Positions 241 through 32,608 of a stretch of 64,000 nt of DNA are shown in pieces (within the stretch, counting starts at the first letter, position 1; every line of letters begins with the position of its first letter). A program made the position numbers and the translations under genes. Source of the DNA: Streptococcus suis (GTDB lineage Bacteria > Bacillota > Bacilli > Lactobacillales > Streptococcaceae); NCBI GenBank assembly GCA_022354845.1, contig CP031970.1:1798001-1862000 (forward strand). Direction: 5' to 3'. The notes beneath the pieces were generated by a model. The model saw nothing but the letters and a program-made list of their open reading frames with translations, searched no databases and was not told where the DNA came from.

Positions 241-1125
241 CTATTCCTCCTTCTCTTTATTAAATTTTTCATCTGATTCAAGGTTTTTACTAGTTCTTAG
301 ATCCGTCATTCCTTCTAGATAATAGGGTTTTGAAGGATAATCTTGCCTGCGGAGATACCATATAAGGATGGATCCTATGAATAGGACAAGAGACAAGGCC
401 TGTGAAACACGCAGAAAATCACCAATCCATAGACTATCCGTTCTCATGCCTTCAATAAAGAATCTTCCCGTTGAGTACCAAAGCACGTAACTTAACGCTA
501 CTTCCCCTTGTCGTAACAACTGTTTACGATTCCGTAGAATGATAATGATCACAAATCCTAATAGACTCCATAATGACTCGTACAAAAATGTCGGATGGTA
601 GTAGGTGCCATTAATTTGCATTTGATCAATAATAAACTTTGGCAGGTAAAGGTTCTCCAAAAAGGTGCGGGTCACTGCTTCCCCATGGGCCTCCTGGTTG
701 ATAAAGTTCCCCCATCGGCCAATGGACTGCGCCAACAGAACATAGGGCGCCAGTATATCGAGCATCAATGAAAAAGGGATCCCTTTTTTCTTCGTGAACC
801 AGTACACGGCCAGCCCCCCTGCAATCAAACCGCCATAAATGGCGATGCCGCCTTGCCAAATGGCGATGATTTCAAGCGGTTTCTTGATATAATACTCCCA
901 TTGAAAAAGAACGTAATAAATTCTTGCTCCGATAAGTCCAAGGGGGATAGCCCACATTGCCATATCTGTAATGTCCTCTTCGCCCAAGCCTCTTTTCTTT
1001 CCTTCCTTAGAGGCAAGTGTGATGGCAAGCAACATAGCGCCGACAATAATTAAGCCATACCAATACAAGGTAAAAGGGCCAAAGGAAAACGCGACGCGGT
1101 CGATTGTTCCGACAATTGATTTCAT
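241..1125 (-). CDS. lgt: Prolipoprotein diacylglyceryl transferase (island copy)
   Basis: Transfers diacylglycerol from phosphatidylglycerol to the lipobox cysteine of prelipoproteins, at the membrane. The 294 residues fit the family. Visible signatures are YGGLIAGG near residue 97, the Lgt signature GRWGNFINQEAHG near residue 137, and the late arginine motif GRFFIEGMR. About seven hydrophobic segments are present. The ATG has AGGAG just upstream. The housekeeping lgt of streptococci normally sits beside hprK, so this copy in a copper island is probably an acquired extra. The same island encodes a lipoprotein (YdhK, 9126-9716) that needs Lgt. Base composition looks richer in GC than the AT-rich cop genes nearby. 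Confidence 0.93.
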   Translation of the reverse strand: MKSIVGTIDRVAFSFGPFTLYWYGLIIVGAMLLAITLASKEGKKRGLGEEDITDMAMWAIPLGLIGARIYYVLFQWEYYIKKPLEIIAIWQGGIAIYGGLIAGGLAVYWFTKKKGIPFSLMLDILAPYVLLAQSIGRWGNFINQEAHGEAVTRTFLENLYLPKFIIDQMQINGTYYHPTFLYESLWSLLGFVIIIILRNRKQLLRQGEVALSYVLWYSTGRFFIEGMRTDSLWIGDFLRVSQALSLVLFIGSILIWYLRRQDYPSKPYYLEGMTDLRTSKNLESDEKFNKEKEE

Positions 1126-2938: not shown

Positions 2939-4265
2939 ATGGAACAACTAAATCTTATCACAAATTTTCTCAGAATTAAAGACAAAAATATCACTATCAC
3001 TGATGAATATGATATGGGAACTCACTTAGAACTCCACGGTTACTTGGATTACATGGATTCTAAATGCCCAAAATGCAAGGGACTAATGGCTAAATATGAT
3101 TTCCAGAAAGCCTCTAAGATCCCCTACCTAGAAACAGCTGGCTATCCACTCTTTATCCGCCTTAAAAAGCGTCGTTTCAAGTGTAAAGATTGTGGGAAAT
3201 TGGCTGTTGCTGAAACTCCTCTTGTCAAGAAAAACCACCAAATCTCTGTCGCTGTTAACCAGAAGATCGCTCAATTACTCATCGAAAATCAAGCAATGAC
3301 ACATATCGCACATAGGCTATCTATCTCAACATCATCAGTTATGAGAAAGCTCAATGAGTTCAAGTTTGAAACCGATTGGAATACCCTACCTGAGGTGATG
3401 AGTTGGGACGAGTATGCCTTCAAGAAGGGGAAGATGAGCTTCATCGCTCAAGATTTCAATTCCCTAAATGTCATAACCATTCTGGACGGAAGAACTCAAG
3501 CAACCATCCGAAACCACTTTCTTCGCTATCCTAGAAAGGTTAGAAATCGGGTCAAAGTGATTACCACGGATATGTTTAGTCCCTATTATCAACTTGCTAA
3601 CCCCTTCGCTCTTCTATTTCTGAGCTCAGGCTGAAACAGTCTATTCCCAGACTGTTTCACTCCCCAATGCAAAAATTGTACTCGACCACTTTCATATCGT
3701 GCAACACCTTAGTCGTGCTATGAACCGTGTCCGTATTCAAATTATGAATCAATTCGACAGAAAATCGCACGAATACCGAGCATTGAAACGTTACTGGAAA
3801 TTGATACAACAAGATAGTCGTAAACTCAGCGATAAACGATTTTATCGCCCTATGTTTCGAATGCATTTGACTAACAAGGAAATACTCGAAAAACTCCTGT
3901 CTTTCTCCAAGGAACTACGACAACACTATGAACTCTATCAATTTCTCTTGTTCCATTTCCAAGAGAAAAACTCAGATCATTTCTTCAGTCTCATCGAACA
4001 GGAAATAGCCATCGTTAATCCTATTTTCCAGACGGTATTTAAGACATTTCTAAAGGATAAAGATAAGGTTTTGAATGCCCTAGAATTGCGCTATTCCAAC
4101 GCCAAACTGGAATCTACCAATAATCTCATCAAAGTCATTAAGAGAAATGCCTTTGGTTTCAGGAACTTTGAAAACTTTAAAAAACGGGTTTTGATTGCCT
4201 TGAACAGTGAAAAGGGCTGGGGAGAGCCCTTTTCAGCTTATCTCCTAAAAACAAAAAAGAAATAA
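2939..4265 (+). pseudogene. ISL3-family transposase, interrupted
   Basis: The first part (2939-3598) has the zinc-ribbon cysteines (CPKC near residue 42, CKDC near 80), a helix-turn-helix, and the first two catalytic aspartates (SWDEYAF near 158 and TTDMFSPYY near 211). The second part (3663-4265, about 200 residues) resumes at PNAKIVLDHFHIVQHL and carries the catalytic glutamate region (LESTNNLIK). Between them about 65 bp of foreign palindromic DNA shifts the frame and brings a stop at 3632-3634. Adding the parts gives about 425 residues, the usual ISL3 size. The encoded transposase should be inactive unless supplied in trans. Confidence 0.88.
3601..3665 (-). repeat. Small palindromic element inserted in transposase
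   Basis: Read on the minus strand this segment starts GGGGAGTGAAACAGTCTGGG and contains the arms TGAAACAGTCT / AGACTGTTTCA (3632-3659). The same sequence, differing at only a handful of positions, occurs twice after rnjA (24708-24772 and 24812-24881). It disrupts the ISL3 transposase frame. A few transposase codons appear lost at the junction, so the insertion was not perfectly clean or has since decayed. Confidence 0.8.
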
Positions 4266-4754: not shown

Positions 4755-6962
4755 TTATTTTGGATCTAATTTCAATGTCATAGCATTGATGGCAACGATA
4801 ACAGTGGAGAGGGACATGAGGACGGCACCGACTGCTGGACTTAATGTTATGCCAATTGGTGCTAGTATTCCTGCAGCAATTGGAATCGCGATAAAATTGT
4901 AGCCTGCTCCCCATACCAAGTTTTGTTTCATTTTACGTGTCGTCTTGTTTGCTAACTCGATAAAGGATTCAATATCCCCTGGATCAGACTGAGTAAGGAT
5001 AATATCCGCAGAATCCAAAGCTACTTGCGTTCCAGCTCCGATTGCAATACCTACGTCTGCCAAGGCAAGGGAAGGTGCGTCATTGACCCCGTCTCCCACC
5101 ATGATAACCGTCTTGTTTTGGTTTTTCATGGACTCGACCAGCTTGTACTTATCTTCCGGAGATTGATTGGCTTGGTATTGAATACCTAGAACTTCTGCAA
5201 CTCCTTGTGCAGCTTCCTCGTTATCACCAGTAGCCATGAGTGGTTCAATTCCGTATTTTTTCAGCACCTCGATCAAGTTTCTGCTGGTTTCTTTCAGTTC
5301 ATCTCCCAATGCGACAGCGCCGATTGCTTCATTATTTTCTACAAGGATACTTAAAGTAGCGCCTTTCGGAATATCCATACGCAATGCTTTTCCGTATGCC
5401 TTTTGGCTGATTAATTGATAGTGGTGGCCGTTCGCCTCCCCTTCTATTCCTGCTCCCGAAACGATTTCAATGGAGTCAAAGGAAACTGACTTAATGCCTT
5501 TCGCTTCAGCGTGGTTCACAATCGATTGGGCAATCGGGTGACTGGAGCCCGCCTCTATACCCGCCAACAAGCCTGTAATTTCTTCTTCAGAATATTTATC
5601 ACTCAAAACAGTGACGTCCAAGACTTTAAATTCACCAGTTGTTAAAGTACCTGTTTTATCCAATACCATAACATCCGCTTTAGTAGTTAATTCCAAAGCT
5701 TCTCTATTTTTAACCAGTAATCCTCGACTTGCACCCAAACTAGTACTACGTGATACTACCAAGGGAATAGCAAGACCCAAAGCATGTGGGCAGGCAATAA
5801 CTAACGCAGTCACAGTAAAGATAACGGCTGTAGGTAAATCTGCAATGATCATCCAGGCTACTAGAGCGATTAAAGCTACTACAACGGCAATGTAGAACAA
5901 CCAGCCAGCTACTTTGTGAGCCACATTCTCTGCTCGAGATGGTTGGCTTTGTGCTTGGCTGATTAATGTCTGAACCTGAGAAATGAAGGACTTATCGCCC
6001 GTCTGCTTTATTTCCACATAGAGGACTCCGCCACCATTGGTTGATCCACCGATGACCTCATCTCCGGGTTTTTTTTCAATTGGTTTCGATTCCCCAGTCA
6101 CAAGCGCTTCGTTTAAACGGGATTCTCCGCGGATAATGATACCATCAGCTGGAACATTTTCTCCTGCTTGAACACGGATAACATCTCCAATCTGAAGTTC
6201 AGACACAGGGCGAGTCTCAATCGAATCGTCTTCTAAAACAACATGAGCATCTTTCGGCACCAACTCAGCCAATGCTTTTTGCGCGTCCCCTGCTTCACCC
6301 AATGCCTTCATTTCAATCCAGTGTCCTAACAACATGATTAAAATTAACGTTGTAAACTCAAAGAAGAAGTCCATGACATGTTCTCCGGTCACATATCGAG
6401 CGGCCACTGCGTAAACACTATAGGCATAAGAAACCGTTATTCCCAAAGTAATCAAGGACATCATGCCTGGAGCTTTTGAATTAAACTCATCCTTCGCACC
6501 CATGTAGAATGGTTTTCCGCCATAAATGTATAGAATTGTTGCCAATACAGCTGCTACAACGTCTGCATAAGGAAAGATAATTTGGAAAGGCAACTGAATA
6601 TCCATCAAAGGCGTAATGAGTAAGATTGCAATTCCTAATGGGAGTGACTTCAAGAAAATCTCCTTAAAGCTACCGTGATGGTGGTGGGCATGCCCCCCCA
6701 TTGCGCCATGATCCATTTCACTGTGATCCATCGCACTATGATTCATCTTGCTGTGATCCATCTGACTATGATTCATCTTGCTGTGATCCATCTGACTATG
6801 ATTCATCTTGCTGTGATCCATCTTGCTGTGATCCATCGCACTATGATTCATCTTGCTGTGATCCATCTGACTATGTTCCATTTCATTATGGTCGTGTTTT
6901 GAGTGATCCATGTCACCGTGATTATGATGACTATGTGACGAATGTTTTTTGTTATTCCTCAT
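4755..6962 (-). CDS. copB: CopB-type copper-exporting P1B ATPase
   Basis: Pumps copper out of the cytosol using ATP. The 735 residues include about fourteen N-terminal pentads of the form M(D/N/E)HS(K/Q/A) at residues 18-87, a His/Met-rich metal-binding tail, then the P-type core: the actuator loop (LVTGESKPIEKKPG), the membrane motif ACPHALG (CPH, typical of the CopB/TcrB subgroup rather than CPC CopA), the phosphorylated aspartate in DKTGTLTTG, the SSHPIA nucleotide-domain motif and the GDGVNDAPSLALADVG hinge. The Met/His tail is encoded by repeating DNA that could change copy number. It is the last gene of a tcrYAZB-like set in which the A gene is mostly deleted. No CopY box is visible between it and copZ. 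Confidence 0.95.
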   Translation of the reverse strand: MRNNKKHSSHSHHNHGDMDHSKHDHNEMEHSQMDHSKMNHSAMDHSKMDHSKMNHSQMDHSKMNHSQMDHSKMNHSAMDHSEMDHGAMGGHAHHHHGSFKEIFLKSLPLGIAILLITPLMDIQLPFQIIFPYADVVAAVLATILYIYGGKPFYMGAKDEFNSKAPGMMSLITLGITVSYAYSVYAVAARYVTGEHVMDFFFEFTTLILIMLLGHWIEMKALGEAGDAQKALAELVPKDAHVVLEDDSIETRPVSELQIGDVIRVQAGENVPADGIIIRGESRLNEALVTGESKPIEKKPGDEVIGGSTNGGGVLYVEIKQTGDKSFISQVQTLISQAQSQPSRAENVAHKVAGWLFYIAVVVALIALVAWMIIADLPTAVIFTVTALVIACPHALGLAIPLVVSRSTSLGASRGLLVKNREALELTTKADVMVLDKTGTLTTGEFKVLDVTVLSDKYSEEEITGLLAGIEAGSSHPIAQSIVNHAEAKGIKSVSFDSIEIVSGAGIEGEANGHHYQLISQKAYGKALRMDIPKGATLSILVENNEAIGAVALGDELKETSRNLIEVLKKYGIEPLMATGDNEEAAQGVAEVLGIQYQANQSPEDKYKLVESMKNQNKTVIMVGDGVNDAPSLALADVGIAIGAGTQVALDSADIILTQSDPGDIESFIELANKTTRKMKQNLVWGAGYNFIAIPIAAGILAPIGITLSPAVGAVLMSLSTVIVAINAMTLKLDPK

Positions 6963-7100: not shown

Positions 7101-7307
7101 TTATACACTTAATACTGAATAGTTAGTTTCTGCTAAAGCAGCATTGAGCGTTTCGGTATCAATCTCTGTTTGACTTTCAAGTACTGCTTTTTTAGTCGCT
7201 AAATCAACCTCTACAGATTCAACCCCTTCAATAGCTGAAAATTTTTCTTGCACTGTATTGGCACAACCTGCACATTTTACGCCATCTAATAAGACTTCTT
7301 TTTTCAT
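7101..7307 (-). CDS. copZ: CopZ copper chaperone
   Basis: A 68-residue HMA-domain protein with the copper-binding site KCAGCANTV at residues 11-19 (CxxC). It binds Cu(I) and hands it to the exporter or to CopY. The ATG at 7307 is chosen because all 68 residues match the CopZ/TcrZ family and AGGGGAA lies upstream; the longer open frame continuing to 7532 is only a remnant of copA joined in frame. Expression should come from the CopY-controlled promoter at 7673-7723, through the dead copA remnant. Confidence 0.9.
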
Positions 7308-7634
7308 TATTCTATTCCCCTTTTTTTTATCTTCAGGTAATACTTCACTTAATACACTGTCTATACCCACTTGCTTAGCAATCGCTTTGGCTGTACGTTT
7401 GTTATCTCCAGTAATCATGATTACTTCAACACCGCGTCTTCTAAGTTCTTTAGCAGCCTTCATACTATTTTCCTTGAGTGTGTCAGCTACTGCGATAATT
7501 CCAGCTAGTTCTCCATCAACAGAGAGATACATCTAATGCTATAACAATCGGTACGAAATATCCAGTAATGATATCGGCCATTCGAGCAATGGGTGCTTTA
7601 GACCCTTGAGCATCTTCTACTAATTTTAATTTGG
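7308..7634 (-). pseudogene. copA: copA (P1B copper ATPase) remnant
   Basis: Two short pieces of a CopA/TcrA ATPase survive. The first (about 7634-7540) reads [20 protein letters not shown] then [10 protein letters not shown], the end of the actuator region and the next membrane helix. It then shifts frame into the second piece (7532-7320), with [17 protein letters not shown] and [20 protein letters not shown], part of the nucleotide-binding and hinge domain, ending at LPEDKK. The N-terminal metal domain, CPC motif, DKTG phosphorylation site and C-terminus are gone. Only promoter function and perhaps translational read-in to copZ remain. Confidence 0.85.
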
Positions 7635-7826: not shown

Positions 7827-8828
7827 TTAAACCAACTTCGAAAAGTGTTCTACAAGACGGATCATATTGCTTACAAAGCCATATTCGTTATCGTACCAAG
7901 CAACTGTTTTAACCAATTGTCCCCCATTTGCATCTAATACTTCTGTTAACGTTGCATCAAAAACGGATCCATGTGTAGTCCCCACGACATCGGAGGAAAC
8001 AATTTCATCCTCAGTGTACCCATATGAATCATTCGCGGCTGCCTTCATCACTTCGTTAATCTGATCAACGGTTACCTCTCTATCCAACACCGAGAACAGT
8101 TCTACAAAGCCCGCAGTAATGACAGGAACCCGTGTGGTGGTACCCGTAATGATCCCTTTAACCTCTGGAATGACTTTTCCTAATGCGTTGTCAGCGCCAG
8201 TCGTAACAGGAATAACATTTTGAGCACCTGCGCGACTTTTACGTCCCCCGGGAGCATCTTGCAAGTTTTGTGTCGCTGTATAGGCACGCGATCCTGTCAT
8301 CAGGCCTCGTTGAATCCCAAACTCGTCCACTAATACTTTTGTCATTAAGGCTAAACCGTTTGTCGTACAGGAAGCGGCGGAAATAATTTTGTCACTTGGA
8401 CTCAAAATTTCTTGGTTGACACCAAAGACAACGACTTTCGTTTCTTCATCTTTAGTTGGTGCTGAAATAATTACTTTTTTAGCTCCAGCGTCTATGTGTG
8501 CCTGTGCTTTTTCATTAGTTGTGTAGAAGCCTGTACATTCCAAAACGATATCAATGTCCAAATCGGACCATGGTAGTTTTTTGGCATCCTTTTCTTCGAA
8601 TGTTTTAACTTCTTTGCCATCAACCAGAATTGAATCGCCTCTTACCTCGATATCATAAGGGAAAATCCCATATGCAGTATCGTATTTTAAAGAGTAGGCT
8701 AAATCCTCATTATTTGTTAAATCATTTACTGCAACAACCTGTAGTTCTGAGTCCCTCAACTCTTTAATACGGCGAAATGCTAAGCGTCCAATACGACCAA
8801 ACCCATTAATAGCTATTTTTATTGTCAT
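7827..8828 (-). CDS. Variant type I GAPDH, copper-regulated
   Basis: A 333-residue glyceraldehyde-3-phosphate dehydrogenase homologue with the NAD-binding start INGFGRIGR, the catalytic cysteine in SCTTNG (Cys154), phosphate-site residues AYT (182-184), TTG (209-211) and TRVP, and WYDNE near the end. Two strongly conserved positions differ from GapA of the same genome (31598-32608): the second cysteine of CTTNC is Gly158, and the catalytic histidine of TIHAYT is Arg181 (GSRAYT). Dehydrogenase activity is therefore uncertain. The promoter carries a perfect CopY box, so it is likely induced by copper together with the efflux genes. It may replace copper-poisoned GapA, have another reaction, or bind copper; none is shown. 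Confidence 0.9.
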   Translation of the reverse strand: MTIKIAINGFGRIGRLAFRRIKELRDSELQVVAVNDLTNNEDLAYSLKYDTAYGIFPYDIEVRGDSILVDGKEVKTFEEKDAKKLPWSDLDIDIVLECTGFYTTNEKAQAHIDAGAKKVIISAPTKDEETKVVVFGVNQEILSPSDKIISAASCTTNGLALMTKVLVDEFGIQRGLMTGSRAYTATQNLQDAPGGRKSRAGAQNVIPVTTGADNALGKVIPEVKGIITGTTTRVPVITAGFVELFSVLDREVTVDQINEVMKAAANDSYGYTEDEIVSSDVVGTTHGSVFDATLTEVLDANGGQLVKTVAWYDNEYGFVSNMIRLVEHFSKLV

Positions 8829-8859
8829 TTAATCTCATTCCTTCTTTTTTCATTTTGAC

Positions 8860-8915
8860 TACAACTGTAATCTGCTTAATAATTATAGATTACAGTAATA
8901 AACTATAATTGTCAA
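8860..8915 (-). promoter_or_regulatory. CopY-controlled promoter of the variant GAPDH gene
   Basis: On the minus strand: TTGACA (8910-8915), a 17-bp spacer, TAATCT (8887-8892), then a perfect CopY box TACAACTGTA (8860-8869, plus-strand reading) between the -10 and the start codon. A second palindrome-like half site ATTACAGTAAT overlaps the -10 (8889-8899). Confidence 0.82.
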
Positions 8916-9125: not shown

Positions 9126-9716
9126 TTACTCAGCAGAAAGCTCCGAGTCGGTTACCCATTTATGGTTCTTGACTTCCTCTCCACCCGTGGTTGGCTGGTA
9201 GTCAATCACGTATACTGTGGTGCTTTTAGCATCGTCAATCGTAGCCGTTGCGCCTTCCATGCCTTCCGTGTGGTTGGCTTCCAAGGTTACCTCGTCTCCT
9301 GGTTCGAAAGGTTCCTCTCCTGCATCCGCAATCTCCTGGTGAATTACCCATTTGTGATTCTCTTCGCGCGGGCCGCCATTCGTAGGATCATAGGATACCT
9401 CGTAGGCTACAGTGTCAAAAGCGCCCACAATCGTGGCTTCTGCCCCCTCCATGCCTTCCATGTGCCCGTCTGTGATTGTTGCCGTCTCCCCCACATTGTA
9501 GGTAGGATTTTCAGCTTCTTCCAAACCTGCTGGGATTTCACCAGATTCATCGTGCACCATGCCGCCGTGATCACCACTTTCTGAAGATGTTTCTTCGGTT
9601 GTCGTTTGATTTGTATCTGTTCCAGTAGATTCATTTATCTCGTCACTGCCACATGCTCCAAGTAATAAGGCAGATGACAGTAAAATAGTTCCTATCCATT
9701 TTTTATTCTGTTTCAT
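9126..9716 (-). CDS. ydhK: YdhK-family (DUF1541) copper-island lipoprotein
   Basis: A 196-residue surface lipoprotein: a signal peptide ending in the lipobox LGAC (Cys near residue 23), a Ser/Thr/Glu-rich linker, then two DUF1541 repeats (about 78-137 and 143-196), each with an H-xEGMEGA-ATI core and ending NHKWV. It is anchored outside the membrane after lipidation by Lgt. The family is common in Gram-positive copper loci and its His/Met-containing repeats may bind copper, but no reaction is established. The ATG at 9716 has AGGAGG upstream; the open frame beyond it to 9872 belongs to a different, truncated gene fused by chance. I see no CopY box directly upstream. Confidence 0.88.
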   Translation of the reverse strand: MKQNKKWIGTILLSSALLLGACGSDEINESTGTDTNQTTTEETSSESGDHGGMVHDESGEIPAGLEEAENPTYNVGETATITDGHMEGMEGAEATIVGAFDTVAYEVSYDPTNGGPREENHKWVIHQEIADAGEEPFEPGDEVTLEANHTEGMEGATATIDDAKSTTVYVIDYQPTTGGEEVKNHKWVTDSELSAE

Positions 9717-9740
9717 TTTTTTCCTCCTGAATTTAAAAAA

Positions 9741-9953
9741 ATAAATCTTTAAACTATCATGCTTTTTGTGTTGATAATAGCTTCCAGACTGCTTCTCAAT
9801 TGGTTCTCCGATTGAGAATAAATAATCAACTATCGGAATATTATAGAAATTAATTTCTTTGTTATCAGACATTTCTTCCCACTCCTTGTGCTGTAAAGCA
9901 TATGTTTTATCTGCTATTGCTTATTGGTCTAGATCTTTTAGTCTTTCTTCCAT
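9741..9953 (-). pseudogene. Remnant of plasmid TOPRIM/DUF3991-like gene
   Basis: In one minus-strand frame the sequence reads MEERLKDLDQ, a TAA stop (9921-9923), then AIADKTYALQHKEWEE, then MSDNKEINFYNIPIVDYLFS and YYQHKKHDSLKI. The NIPIVDYL...KHDSLKI pattern resembles the start of the DUF3991/TOPRIM proteins of mobilisable plasmids. It is cut off at about 9744, where the ydhK 5' region begins. An AAGGAG precedes the MSDNKE start, so a short peptide could still be made. The family assignment is tentative. Confidence 0.5.
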
Positions 9954-10028: not shown

Positions 10029-10484
10029 TTATTCTCCATGATGATGTAAATGGCAATCGCATTGCCCTTCTGTACACTGACAATCCACTTCTTCTACTGC
10101 GAAAGCTTTTTTCATTTCTAATATTTCTTCTAGTCGCTGGATATCATCAAAGCTTAAGACATGATTTTCAATGATACTCCCTACTGCATTCCCGACATTC
10201 TTTCGACAAATACGGTTGAAAATATCGTCTGTATACTTTCCTACGGCTTCTTTCTCTTCAATATTGGCAGTATAAATAAATTTTCTACCTTCTTTCTCTG
10301 TATTTAGTACGCCTTTTTCAACCAGTCGACCTAAGAGCGTTTTGATAGTGGCTTGTTTCCAGTCCATTTTTTCTTTCAATATGGAGATGACTTCTTTACT
10401 AGTCACTCGACCATTCGCCCAGACTACACGCATAACTTCCCATTCAGTATCTGTGATATGAGGGCTAACTACTATTGTACTCAT
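10029..10484 (-). CDS. copY: CopY copper-responsive repressor
   Basis: A 151-residue BlaI/MecI-type repressor: a winged helix at residues 8-80 (ITDTEWEVMRVVW, KQATIKTLLGRL), a dimerisation region, and the C-terminal metal site CQCTEGQCDC (CxCx4CxC, about residues 134-143) followed by HLHHH. With zinc it binds cop boxes; Cu(I) delivered by CopZ releases it. It is first in transcription order and lies behind its own operator (10506-10563). Three promoters in this island carry matching boxes, so it probably controls the copA'/copZ unit, the variant GAPDH and itself. Confidence 0.94.
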   Translation of the reverse strand: MSTIVVSPHITDTEWEVMRVVWANGRVTSKEVISILKEKMDWKQATIKTLLGRLVEKGVLNTEKEGRKFIYTANIEEKEAVGKYTDDIFNRICRKNVGNAVGSIIENHVLSFDDIQRLEEILEMKKAFAVEEVDCQCTEGQCDCHLHHHGE

Positions 10485-10505
10485 TCTCTTTTCCTCCTTA
10501 TTGTC

Positions 10506-10563
10506 TACATGTGTAAACGTAAATGCTTGAGATAAGTTTACTATTGTAAACCATTCTTGTCAA
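10506..10563 (-). promoter_or_regulatory. CopY autoregulated promoter with two cop boxes
   Basis: On the minus strand: TTGACA (10558-10563), a 17-bp spacer, TAAACT (10535-10540). A perfect cop box TACATGTGTA lies at 10506-10515 and a one-mismatch box TACTATTGTA at 10539-10548, overlapping the spacer and -10. Confidence 0.85.
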
Positions 10564-10953: not shown

Positions 10954-11881
10954 CTATTCGGAAAAAGCCATTTCAGCTTTTCTATGAGCAAGGATTTTAG
11001 CTTCAAGTCTTCTTTCTTCCTTGAGATTTTCTAAGGACTTAAGAAGGTACGCTAAAGGGGATTCACTGTCAGAGGTATTCGCTCAATAACGTTAATTATT
11101 TCTCGACTTGTTATATAGCCGTCAGAGAGGTATTGTCCTATCATCATTTTTTGTTTATGAGTTAGACTATAATTTTGAAACTCACCAGTGAATAAATCTT
11201 GTTGGCAAAATTCACCGTTATATTCATCAGCAATTACTTGTAGGAGAGAATAATATTGAGGGTCAATATATTTTTCGGATTTTTCAATAGATGAGATATT
11301 ATCAGCTCTAATAGACGAAGAAAATTCTTTAGAATTTTTTGAGCTCTTTCTAGAACTAGTATATTCACTTAAATAAGTCTCATTGTCTTCAGTATCATTA
11401 GGGGCTGATTTTGACACTAGCCTCGTGTTATTTTGACATCCCCCTGGTATAAATTTGACACCACTCTAGATTCTACATGGGAATCTTCAACTTTTTTGTT
11501 ATTTTGGGTAAGGAAGTTATCCTTCAATTGACCTAGATATATACGATTTGCCAAGCTCCCAGTCTTGGTCGTTGATTGTTGAACCTCATAAATTAAACCA
11601 AATTGTGTTAATTCTTTTTTCATTATTAACAGAGTAGACTTAGAACAATTTAAAATATCCATCAGTTTAGAATTGGAATAGACTAAAAACACATACCCAT
11701 CTTCATCAATCCAATTATTTTTAAAAGACAAACTTAATCTATCTTTTAATACTGCATAGAAGACTTTGGCATCTAATCTCATTTCTTTGTAAAGATCACT
11801 CTCAAAAAGTATTTTAGGCAATGCATAGAATCTTTCTGAAGTTTGATATTCATCGGCACTTATTAAAATAATATTTTCCAT
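10954..11881 (-). pseudogene. repA: repA_N plasmid replication initiator, two frameshifts
   Basis: The N-terminal domain (start ATG 11881, MENIILISADEY) has the RepA_N pattern: ERFYALPKILFES, DAKVFYAVLKDRLSLS, NNWIDEDGYVF and NCSKSTLLIMKKEL. The first frame closes at 11417 (VKITRG then TAG); the rest continues in another frame from KSAPNDTEDNE to IERIPLTVNP. A second shift at a CCCC run near 11046 is needed to read the normal C-terminus AYLLKSLENLKEERRLEAKI...EMAFSE, ending at 10954. Such initiators drive theta replication of Gram-positive plasmids, so the island includes an integrated, now replication-defective plasmid. Confidence 0.85.
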
Positions 11882-11882
11882 A

Positions 11883-12073
11883 TTATTCTGCCTCACCTAC
11901 TTTTAACATCATCCCACCTGATTCGGGAAATTTAATTAAATTGAATTGCTCAAGCTCTTGAGAGACTCTTCGACTTTGGAACGTGACCAACCAGTATCTT
12001 TCATCAAAGAAACAATAACCATGTTTCTTGACTGTCTTTGTTTAGCACGTGTGTTTTTATAGCTTGATGTCAT
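11883..12073 (-). pseudogene. Small plasmid ORF upstream of repA, frameshifted
   Basis: From ATG 12073 (AAAGGAA upstream) the frame reads MTSSYKNTRAKQRQSRNMVI, then DTGWSRSKVEESLK, and runs to a stop at 11936. If one base is added near 11955 the frame continues ELEQFNLIKFPESGG...KVGEAE and stops at 11883, two bases before the repA ATG. The joined product of about 63 residues looks like a small winged-helix-like partner gene of repA. Unknown family. Confidence 0.45.
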
Positions 12074-31597: not shown

Positions 31598-32608
31598 TTA
31601 TTTAGCGATTTTTGCGAAGTACTCAAGAGTACGAACAAGTTGTGAAGTGTAAGACATTTCGTTATCGTACCAAGAAACAACTTTAACCAATTGTTTACCA
31701 TCTACATCAAGAACTTTAGTTTGAGTTGCGTCAAACAATGAACCGAATGAGATACCTACGATATCTGAAGAAACGATTTGATCTTCAGTGTAACCATATG
31801 ATTCGTTAGAAGCAGCTTTCATAGCAGCATTTACTTCGTCAACAGTTACATTTTTCTCAAGAACAGTAATCAATTCAGTTACAGAACCTGTTGGAGTAGG
31901 TACGCGTTGTGCAGCACCGTCCAATTTACCGTTCAATTCTGGGATTACCAAGCCGATAGCTTTAGCAGCACCAGTTGAGTTAGGAACGATGTTAGCAGCA
32001 CCAGCACGAGCACGACGAAGGTCACCACCACGGTGTGGACCGTCAAGGATCATTTGGTCACCAGTGTAAGCGTGGATAGTTGTCATCAAACCTTCAACAA
32101 TACCGAAGTTATCTTGAAGTGCTTTAGCCATTGGAGCCAAACAGTTTGTAGTACATGAAGCACCTGAGATAACTGTTTCAGTACCATCAAGAATGTCATG
32201 GTTAGTGTTGAAAACGATTGTTTTAACATCGTTACCACCAGGAGCAGTGATAACAACTTTTTTCGCACCGTTTTCGTGGATGTGTTGTTCAGCTTTTTCT
32301 TTAGAAGCAAAGAAACCAGTAGCTTCAAGAACGATTTCTACACCATCAGCAGCCCAGTCAATGTTAGCTGGTTCGCGTTCAGCAGAAACTTTAACGAATT
32401 TGCCGTTAACTTCAAAACCACCATCTTTAACTTCAACAGTACCGTCGAAACGACCTTGAGTTGTGTCATATTTCAACAAGTGTGCAAGCATAGTTGGGTC
32501 TGTAAGGTCATTGATACGCGTAACTTCAACACCTTCAACATTTTGGATACGACGGAATGCAAGACGGCCAATACGACCAAAACCGTTAATACCAACTTTA
32601 ACTACCAT
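31598..32608 (-). CDS. gapA: Glyceraldehyde-3-phosphate dehydrogenase (housekeeping)
   Basis: Glycolytic NAD-dependent GAPDH, 336 residues. NAD-binding INGFGRIGR, catalytic Cys152 in SCTTNC with Cys156, His179 in TIHAYT, and WYDNEMSY are all present, unlike the island paralogue at 7827-8828. The gene has strong codon bias (highly expressed), its own promoter (32720-32748) and a UUCG terminator. Confidence 0.97.

Follow-up and report, generated by a model that had tools for sequence, protein, structure and literature searches.

Within the 64,000-nucleotide stretch of Streptococcus suis DNA analysed here (the window), a copper island carries a second GAPDH gene, gap, whose product is probably a copper-induced replacement for the canonical enzyme GapA, its activity, copper insensitivity, copper induction and fitness benefit being features that we infer from sequence. 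In the loci and alignments compared, a distinct clade, conserved active-site residues, linkage to copper genes, CopY-type operators, pairing with a class I aldolase and coexistence with GapA were each observed directly, giving firm support to an Arg-type subfamily with copper linkage and a remodelled active site, for which a working, copper-insensitive GAPDH is the most likely function. On the broader scale, the chances appear about even that mobile copper islands of the Bacillota bear a CopY-controlled, copper-proof stretch of glycolysis, composed of a competent Cys-Arg or Cys-Lys GAPDH and a class I aldolase, in which the catalytic His was traded away in two lineages under the same selection.

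Gene and active site of the island GAPDH

The gap paralogue is a full-length open reading frame of 333 amino acids at 7827..8828 on the minus strand, and the range originally annotated, which ended at 8915, comprises this frame together with its promoter. The protein scores 378.3 bits against the type I GAPDH profile TIGR01534 (cut-off 367.2), contains the Pfam domains Gp_dh_N and Gp_dh_C of the Rossmann and catalytic domain fold, and has a predicted structure of mean pLDDT 86.1, falling below 50 in the segment 191-204, that matches S. aureus GapA (3lvf) with a TM score of 0.93 and 56% identity in the fold alignment. It is a GAPDH homologue and a candidate working GAPDH. Together with the neighbouring copY and copB genes, these results bear out the initial annotation of a full-length GAPDH in a copper island.

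On the same strand, between copY and gap, lies a gene with a PF07563 (DUF1541) match (9126..9872, minus strand), presumed to encode a YdhK-like lipoprotein. The product of copY (10029..10484, minus strand) scores 190.2 bits on the profile TIGR02698 of CopY/TcrY-family copper repressors (cut-off 121.95), and two frames to the right of copY (11052-11896, minus strand; 121 and 159 amino acids) had no NCBIfam match. On the other side of gap, a single frame at 7101..7532 (minus strand), assigned by profile and reading frame, joins a copZ-like chaperone (approximately 7101-7307) to a fragment of a copA-type ATPase, of which further pieces contain stops. It is followed by copB (4755..6962, minus strand), which encodes a copper-translocating P-type ATPase with a His/Met-rich N-terminus (TIGR01511, 631.1 bits; cut-off 397) and is the sole exporter gene of the island found intact. 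An ISL3-family transposase (2939-4265, plus strand), present as two frames (2939-3634 and 3699-4265) and probably broken, adjoins copB, and next to the island lie a Lit-family gene (PF07314; 2098-2736, plus strand) and an lgt-like gene (241-1125, minus strand); an lgt-like gene was found in 8 of the 13 loci inspected at wider range. The identical gap protein occurs in S. suis strain HCJ31 (L004), and across 284 genomes of the genus, one per species, matches at E ≤ 1e-150 were confined to the window genome and one other with a 100% copy (G1153), so the paralogue looks recently acquired in the window genome.

The same genome encodes a canonical GapA outside the island (31598..32608, minus strand), which reads CTTNC and TTIHAYT where the paralogue reads CTTNG and TGSRAYT. 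As the initial annotation had noted, Cys154 and the phosphate-site residues are kept, Gly158 stands in place of the second Cys, and within Gly179-Ser180-Arg181 the catalytic His of the Cys-His dyad, a feature of type I GAPDHs, is replaced by Arg. Among the 54 top-ranking homologues (identity 71-98%), residue 181 is Arg in 50 and otherwise His (P0051, P0052), Ser (P0004) or a gap (P0023); the next 66 uniformly have His. For residue comparisons, GapA, P0004 and P0023 were set aside, leaving 51 Arg-type sequences, the window protein included, and 68 His-type sequences. Position 158 is occupied by G (25), A (20) or S (6) in the former and by C (67) or G (1) in the latter. Fixed differences between the two types cluster at the pocket (161 P->L, 179-181 TIH->GSR and 239-240 GS->AG), with position 158 also differing and the last group spanning 239-241. 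The catalytic Cys154, in SCTTN, is invariant in 51/51 Arg-type sequences. When 49 GAPDHs of the Arg and His types, the window GapA among them, were aligned, Cys154, Thr155, Thr184, Arg199, Thr210, Gly211, Arg233 and Asn314 proved invariant, as did Asp36, which we take as a marker of NAD-type cofactor use and which speaks against a switch of cofactor.

Arg181 and a residue other than Cys at position 158 are kept in the other copper islands as well. Estimates of dN/dS for five diverged Arg-type pairs (0.05-0.14; a sixth pair gave no value) resemble those for three His-type pairs (0.08-0.13), with some dS saturated, and within the mobile subclade of 95-99% identity the values for five pairs (0.12-0.80) are noisy, the sequences being too close to judge. 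From the clade-wide conservation and these ratios, the active site is therefore read as remodelled and selected rather than decaying, and the decayed copy that the initial annotation had considered was rejected for the window gene because the residue changes are conserved clade-wide. Broken relatives do occur, with a stop in E. aquimarinus, truncation by an insertion sequence in E. lactis, and copies lacking their N-terminal part in Tetragenococcus and Marinilactibacillus. A GAPDH deprived of its catalytic His is normally crippled, and we know of no other GAPDH in which Arg or Lys partners the active-site Cys.

Copper-gene neighbourhood and operators

A survey of 395 genomes of the order (E ≤ 1e-125) gave, among the loci listed (n = 30), 11 Arg-type and 19 His-type loci. 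Within pieces of approximately 4 kb, copper genes were found near gap in 11/11 Arg-type and 0/19 His-type loci, the Arg-type loci sharing kinship, such that these counts are not counts of independent events. In one of the 11 (L021), the 4-kb piece shows the YdhK-like gene only, and the wider region (L059) reads tcrY-copA-copZ-tcrB. One genome (G282) holds two full-length Arg-type gap genes approximately 14 kb apart (L055:7245-8243 and L056:6162-7184), with 99% and 96% identity to that of the window. One of these lies by copZ/copB with a perfect-core box, and the other (L056) adjoins a class I aldolase gene, with tcrY 4.4 kb from the aldolase. In three Carnobacterium-like genomes (L061, L062 and L063), the order copY-copA-(copZ)-copB-gap was found on a single strand, with paired boxes in the copY promoter. 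Outside the survey, truncated copies in E. lactis (L001) and in Tetragenococcus/Marinilactibacillus (L009, L012 and L005) are accompanied by copper or heavy-metal genes, and a Ureibacillus copy (L133) has a copB-like gene 5 kb and a copA-like gene 11 kb away. A small Cys-rich protein recurs by gap or copA in copper islands (L011:11045-11314, L059:12924-13196, L061, L062 and L063); the 89-residue form in Jeotgalibaca had no Pfam match.

Judged by eye, the surroundings of two His-type relatives (L124 and L125) resemble a glycolytic operon, and the copper-island GAPDH therefore probably descends from a housekeeping GapA. Each of the 11 Arg-type genomes in the survey additionally has a GAPDH of the His type and a match to class II aldolase, the latter in two pieces with a stop in one genome (G373), and the island enzymes are therefore spares. 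Tandem GAPDH pairs (GDQ-type with ATQ/STQ-type), in which both members have the catalytic His, were also observed in some genomes of the order (L041:403-2556, L042, L064 and L066).

The initial annotation had placed a CopY box in the gap promoter, and this is upheld by a 16-bp operator matrix built from 18 distinct 16-mers from the promoters of the repressor genes themselves. Operator 1 (8857..8872; GATTACAGTTGTAGTC on the minus strand), with its core TACAACTGTA at 8860-8869, lies at -44 from the gap ATG and scores 17.8 bits, a value reached in 0 of 300 Markov resamples of the gap upstream stretch. The weaker operator 2 (8888..8903, minus strand; GTTTATTACTGTAATC) lies 31 bp further upstream, at -75, and scores 11.4 bits. 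Both boxes agree with what we assume of CopY/TcrY operators, namely that they resemble RNYKACANNTGTMRNY and are often paired approximately 31 bp apart, and copY itself has paired operators (10503..10551, minus strand; 16-mers at -34 and -67), recognised by pattern and matrix. The bare 10-mer pattern TACAACTGTA is unremarkable, having two matches in the window against 0.83 expected and at least two in 22 of 100 shuffles.

Scores above 17 bits upstream of gap were obtained for 7/11 Arg-type loci (the window, L018-L022 and L056) and for 2/6 loci of the Lys type described below (L119 and L120), and for 0/17 His-type promoters did the score exceed 9.0 bits; the scan set aside L027 (Arg-type) and L041 and L042 (His-type). 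Two His-type promoters have weak matches (9.0 bits, p 0.017, and 8.4 bits, p 0.003, by resampling), and the promoter of the window GapA scores -2.6 bits. A second box 31 bp from the first is present in the window and in L019, L020, L021, L022, L056, L119 and L120, and L018 has one box. No operator was detected by the matrix scan just upstream of gap in the Arg-type loci L023-L026 or the Lys-type loci L118 and L121-L123, where any copper control would need to act from the head of the operon or through a different regulator.

The Lys-type clade and the aldolase partner

Two loci (L094 and L095) encode the same GAPDH with the motif TTVKAYT, in which Lys replaces the catalytic His. This protein is 56% identical to the window paralogue and 48% identical to GapA, and its gene occupies the same slot, before class I aldolase-tcrY-copA. 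Lys is found at the catalytic His position in 31/31 homologues at 64-99% identity to this query, and His in all of the next 80 newly listed homologues (≤60% identity). Among 32 Lys-type sequences, the query included, position 158 is occupied by D (21), C (8), A (2) or G (1), position 179 is Thr in 28, and Asn314, presumably a nicotinamide contact, has become Ser in this clade. As read from these alignments, the common element of the Arg and Lys types is the loss of His to a basic residue.

Copper genes were located near the Lys-type gap in 6/6 genomes whose context was seen. In one of these (G576, L118) gap follows copY-copA, and in L121-L123, which share its genus code, an HMA-domain gene, Pfam-checked for L121, begins approximately 50 bp after gap. 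A class-wide survey with the Lys-type protein (398 genomes, E ≤ 1e-122) returned two genomes, the Lys-type G576 and the His-type G004 (L113); matches occurred in 4 of 250 genomes of the family of G576; and a plasmid search (E ≤ 1e-100) returned one record, the Arg-type gap of Jeotgalibaca. When a tree of 69 rows was computed with the active-site columns removed, the Arg-type (100/99) and Lys-type (100/100) sequences formed two distinct clades, the former grouping with 11 rows of the His type (100/98). A single Arg+Lys origin was not rejected by the AU test (p 0.122), so that two independent origins of the change from His to a basic residue are the preferred but unproven reading.

A fructose-bisphosphate aldolase of class I is encoded in the E. 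lactis island (33 bits on PF00274; cut-off 22); we take this class of enzyme to be metal-free and to include Fda of S. aureus. Aldolases of this island type (97% identical) occur in 5 of the 395 genomes and adjoin gap in every case, the neighbour being Arg-type in three (one seen in part) and Lys-type in two, with copper genes within the 4-kb piece for four and in the wider region for the fifth (G282). Near the less similar class I aldolases, copper genes were found in 0/15 cases among the matches listed from the 395 genomes, and the island-type aldolase had no match in the window's own genome. The initial annotation had proposed either a substitute enzyme or a copper-binding decoy, and both the existence of the Lys clade and the pairing with a class I aldolase speak for the substitute.

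Mechanism, alternatives and related systems

Ag(I) frequently occupies Cu(I) sites. In the available excerpts of published work, Ag(I) is coordinated by Cys149 and His176 of GAPDH in PDB 6io4 (PMC12007004), and the catalytic His is described as keeping the GAPDH Cys as a thiolate (PMC9287727). GapA of S. aureus binds copper in cells and is inhibited by Cu(I), activity returning with the chelator BCS (PMC6350627, in part), and in S. pyogenes under copper the activity of GapA was lost and that of GapN was not, the catalytic Cys and His being named as the likely site (PMC7733945, in part). In S. aureus grown in TSB with copper, the aldolase Fda and GapA were both raised, and in another medium with 1.5 mM copper Fda was slightly lowered, to 0.9-fold (same excerpts of PMC6350627).

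The most probable explanation for the island enzyme is that canonical GapA is poisoned when the thiolate of its catalytic Cys and its catalytic His trap Cu(I) between them, and that the paralogue would retain the Cys and the sites for NAD and phosphate while exchanging the His for Arg, or for Lys in the second clade, within a remodelled second shell in which the second Cys position is non-Cys in the Arg type and most of the Lys type. The basic side chain would offer no soft neutral ligand for Cu(I), such that copper binding may be too weak to outcompete the thiol buffer, and its positive charge would continue to favour both the thiolate form of the Cys and the oxyanion, so that a slower but useful GAPDH activity may be left. 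CopY/TcrY would repress gap until copper rises, and in several islands gap and the metal-free class I aldolase together would form a copper-proof stretch of glycolysis. Of the missing Cys-His pair on which the initial annotation centred, the loss of the His thus retains its place as the element common to both types. The second Cys does not appear to be the main point because the copper-inhibited GapA of S. aureus (PMC6350627, in part) has Ser at that position, reading CTTNS, and its importance is further weakened by the Cys kept in 8/32 Lys-type sequences.

The same residues could have been altered in an active enzyme for another purpose, such as a GAPDH proof against oxidants, here the peroxide that forms under copper stress, or an enzyme whose reaction has shifted, e.g. 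to hydrolysis of the acyl intermediate, with copper avoidance secondary. Gly179 of the Arg type matches the position of human Thr177 by its distance of 25 residues from the catalytic Cys, and mouse GAPDH T175A (equivalent to human T177A) is described in the excerpts available as more resistant to peroxide without detectable change in basal activity (PMC10132988), so peroxide resistance may accompany the substitution; the second Cys is also gone in 51/51 Arg-type sequences. However, Thr179 is kept in 28/32 Lys-type sequences, and loss of the relay is therefore not the shared change, which is that from His to a basic residue, leaving this account unlikely though with an appreciable chance. A non-catalytic pseudo-enzyme, co-assembling with GapA or performing a regulatory or moonlighting task under copper, would accommodate the missing catalytic His and the His-type GAPDH coexisting in 11/11 Arg-type genomes, but is rather improbable in view of the invariant Cys154 and phosphate- and NAD-site residues, the resemblance of dN/dS in diverged pairs to that of His-type GAPDHs, and the pairing with a second glycolytic enzyme. 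The decoy of the initial annotation, a sink that would bind Cu(I) and spare GapA, fits the location in a copper island and the copper held by S. aureus GapA in cells (PMC6350627, in part), but is very improbable, as the Arg type has fewer potential copper ligands than the His type (mean Cys 1.96 vs 2.96, His 3.02 vs 4.15 and Met 6.29 vs 6.85) and the known metal site is dismantled. The mobility of the island and the broken state of some copies would suit a passenger gene without a copper role, an account that is scarcely credible given that two clades share this type of substitution and this setting, and given the paired operators and the finding of no copper-free intact Arg- or Lys-type locus among the loci examined.

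Among the top-listed open-access PMC papers, judged by title and the opening of the abstract and with subscription papers mostly outside this scope, none described a copper-resistance locus with a gene for GAPDH or aldolase, and in the excerpts available of a review of transferred copper genes GapA is named solely as a copper target (PMC10233261). Copper resistance is commonly portrayed as export, oxidation or sequestration, to which the replacement of a poisoned enzyme would add a further mode. The importance of GAPDH as a physiological copper target also becomes testable, with the site apparently altered by evolution in copper islands, and the Arg and Lys clades would provide two natural tests of whether Arg or Lys can stand in for the textbook dyad residue of GAPDH, its catalytic His.

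The island enzyme resembles canonical GapA, including the copper targets of S. aureus and S. pyogenes, in fold, catalytic Cys, and NAD and phosphate sites, and differs in the absence of the catalytic His, the remodelled shell, the CopY-type promoter and the setting in a copper island; the replaced second Cys has its likeness in the Ser of S. aureus GapA. A second comparison is with the ArsJ-associated GAPDH, an enzyme that makes 1-arseno-3-phosphoglycerate for export: both are paralogues encoded among metal(loid)-resistance genes, although at 269.8 bits against a cut-off of 450 (NF033735) the island enzyme is not a member of that family. Producers of pentalenolactone or koningic acid carry inhibitor-resistant GAPDHs, and the island enzyme would share with these the principle of resistance through replacement of the target enzyme, theirs being directed against natural products and this one against copper. 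Four plasmid relatives at 49-54% identity (L013-L016) keep the catalytic His, lie in regions whose displayed annotation names no copper gene, and were set aside as candidates for the copper type. Among them are the GAPDHs of a small L. plantarum plasmid (L013:6001-7002) and an S. epidermidis plasmid (L016:6001-7002), one of these plasmid genes, with CTTNS, lying by an AraC-family regulator and one by leuCD and an aminotransferase gene, and the L013 and L016 enzymes possibly represent target replacement against other inhibitors.

With the manganese-independent phosphoglycerate mutase GpmA, as described in the abstract of PMC6684088, the proposed replacement GAPDH would share the role of a second isozyme that sustains glycolysis when metal conditions put the principal enzyme out of action, whereas GpmA answers metal starvation with a different enzyme and the island gene would answer metal excess, from a mobile island, with the same fold and an altered active site. 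Like the copper-induced lit2 and lgt2 genes of mobile elements (PMC8275575, in part), gap is non-exporter cargo of a mobile copper element, and lit- and lgt-like genes are likewise present in the window; unlike those genes, which modify lipoproteins, gap concerns metabolism.
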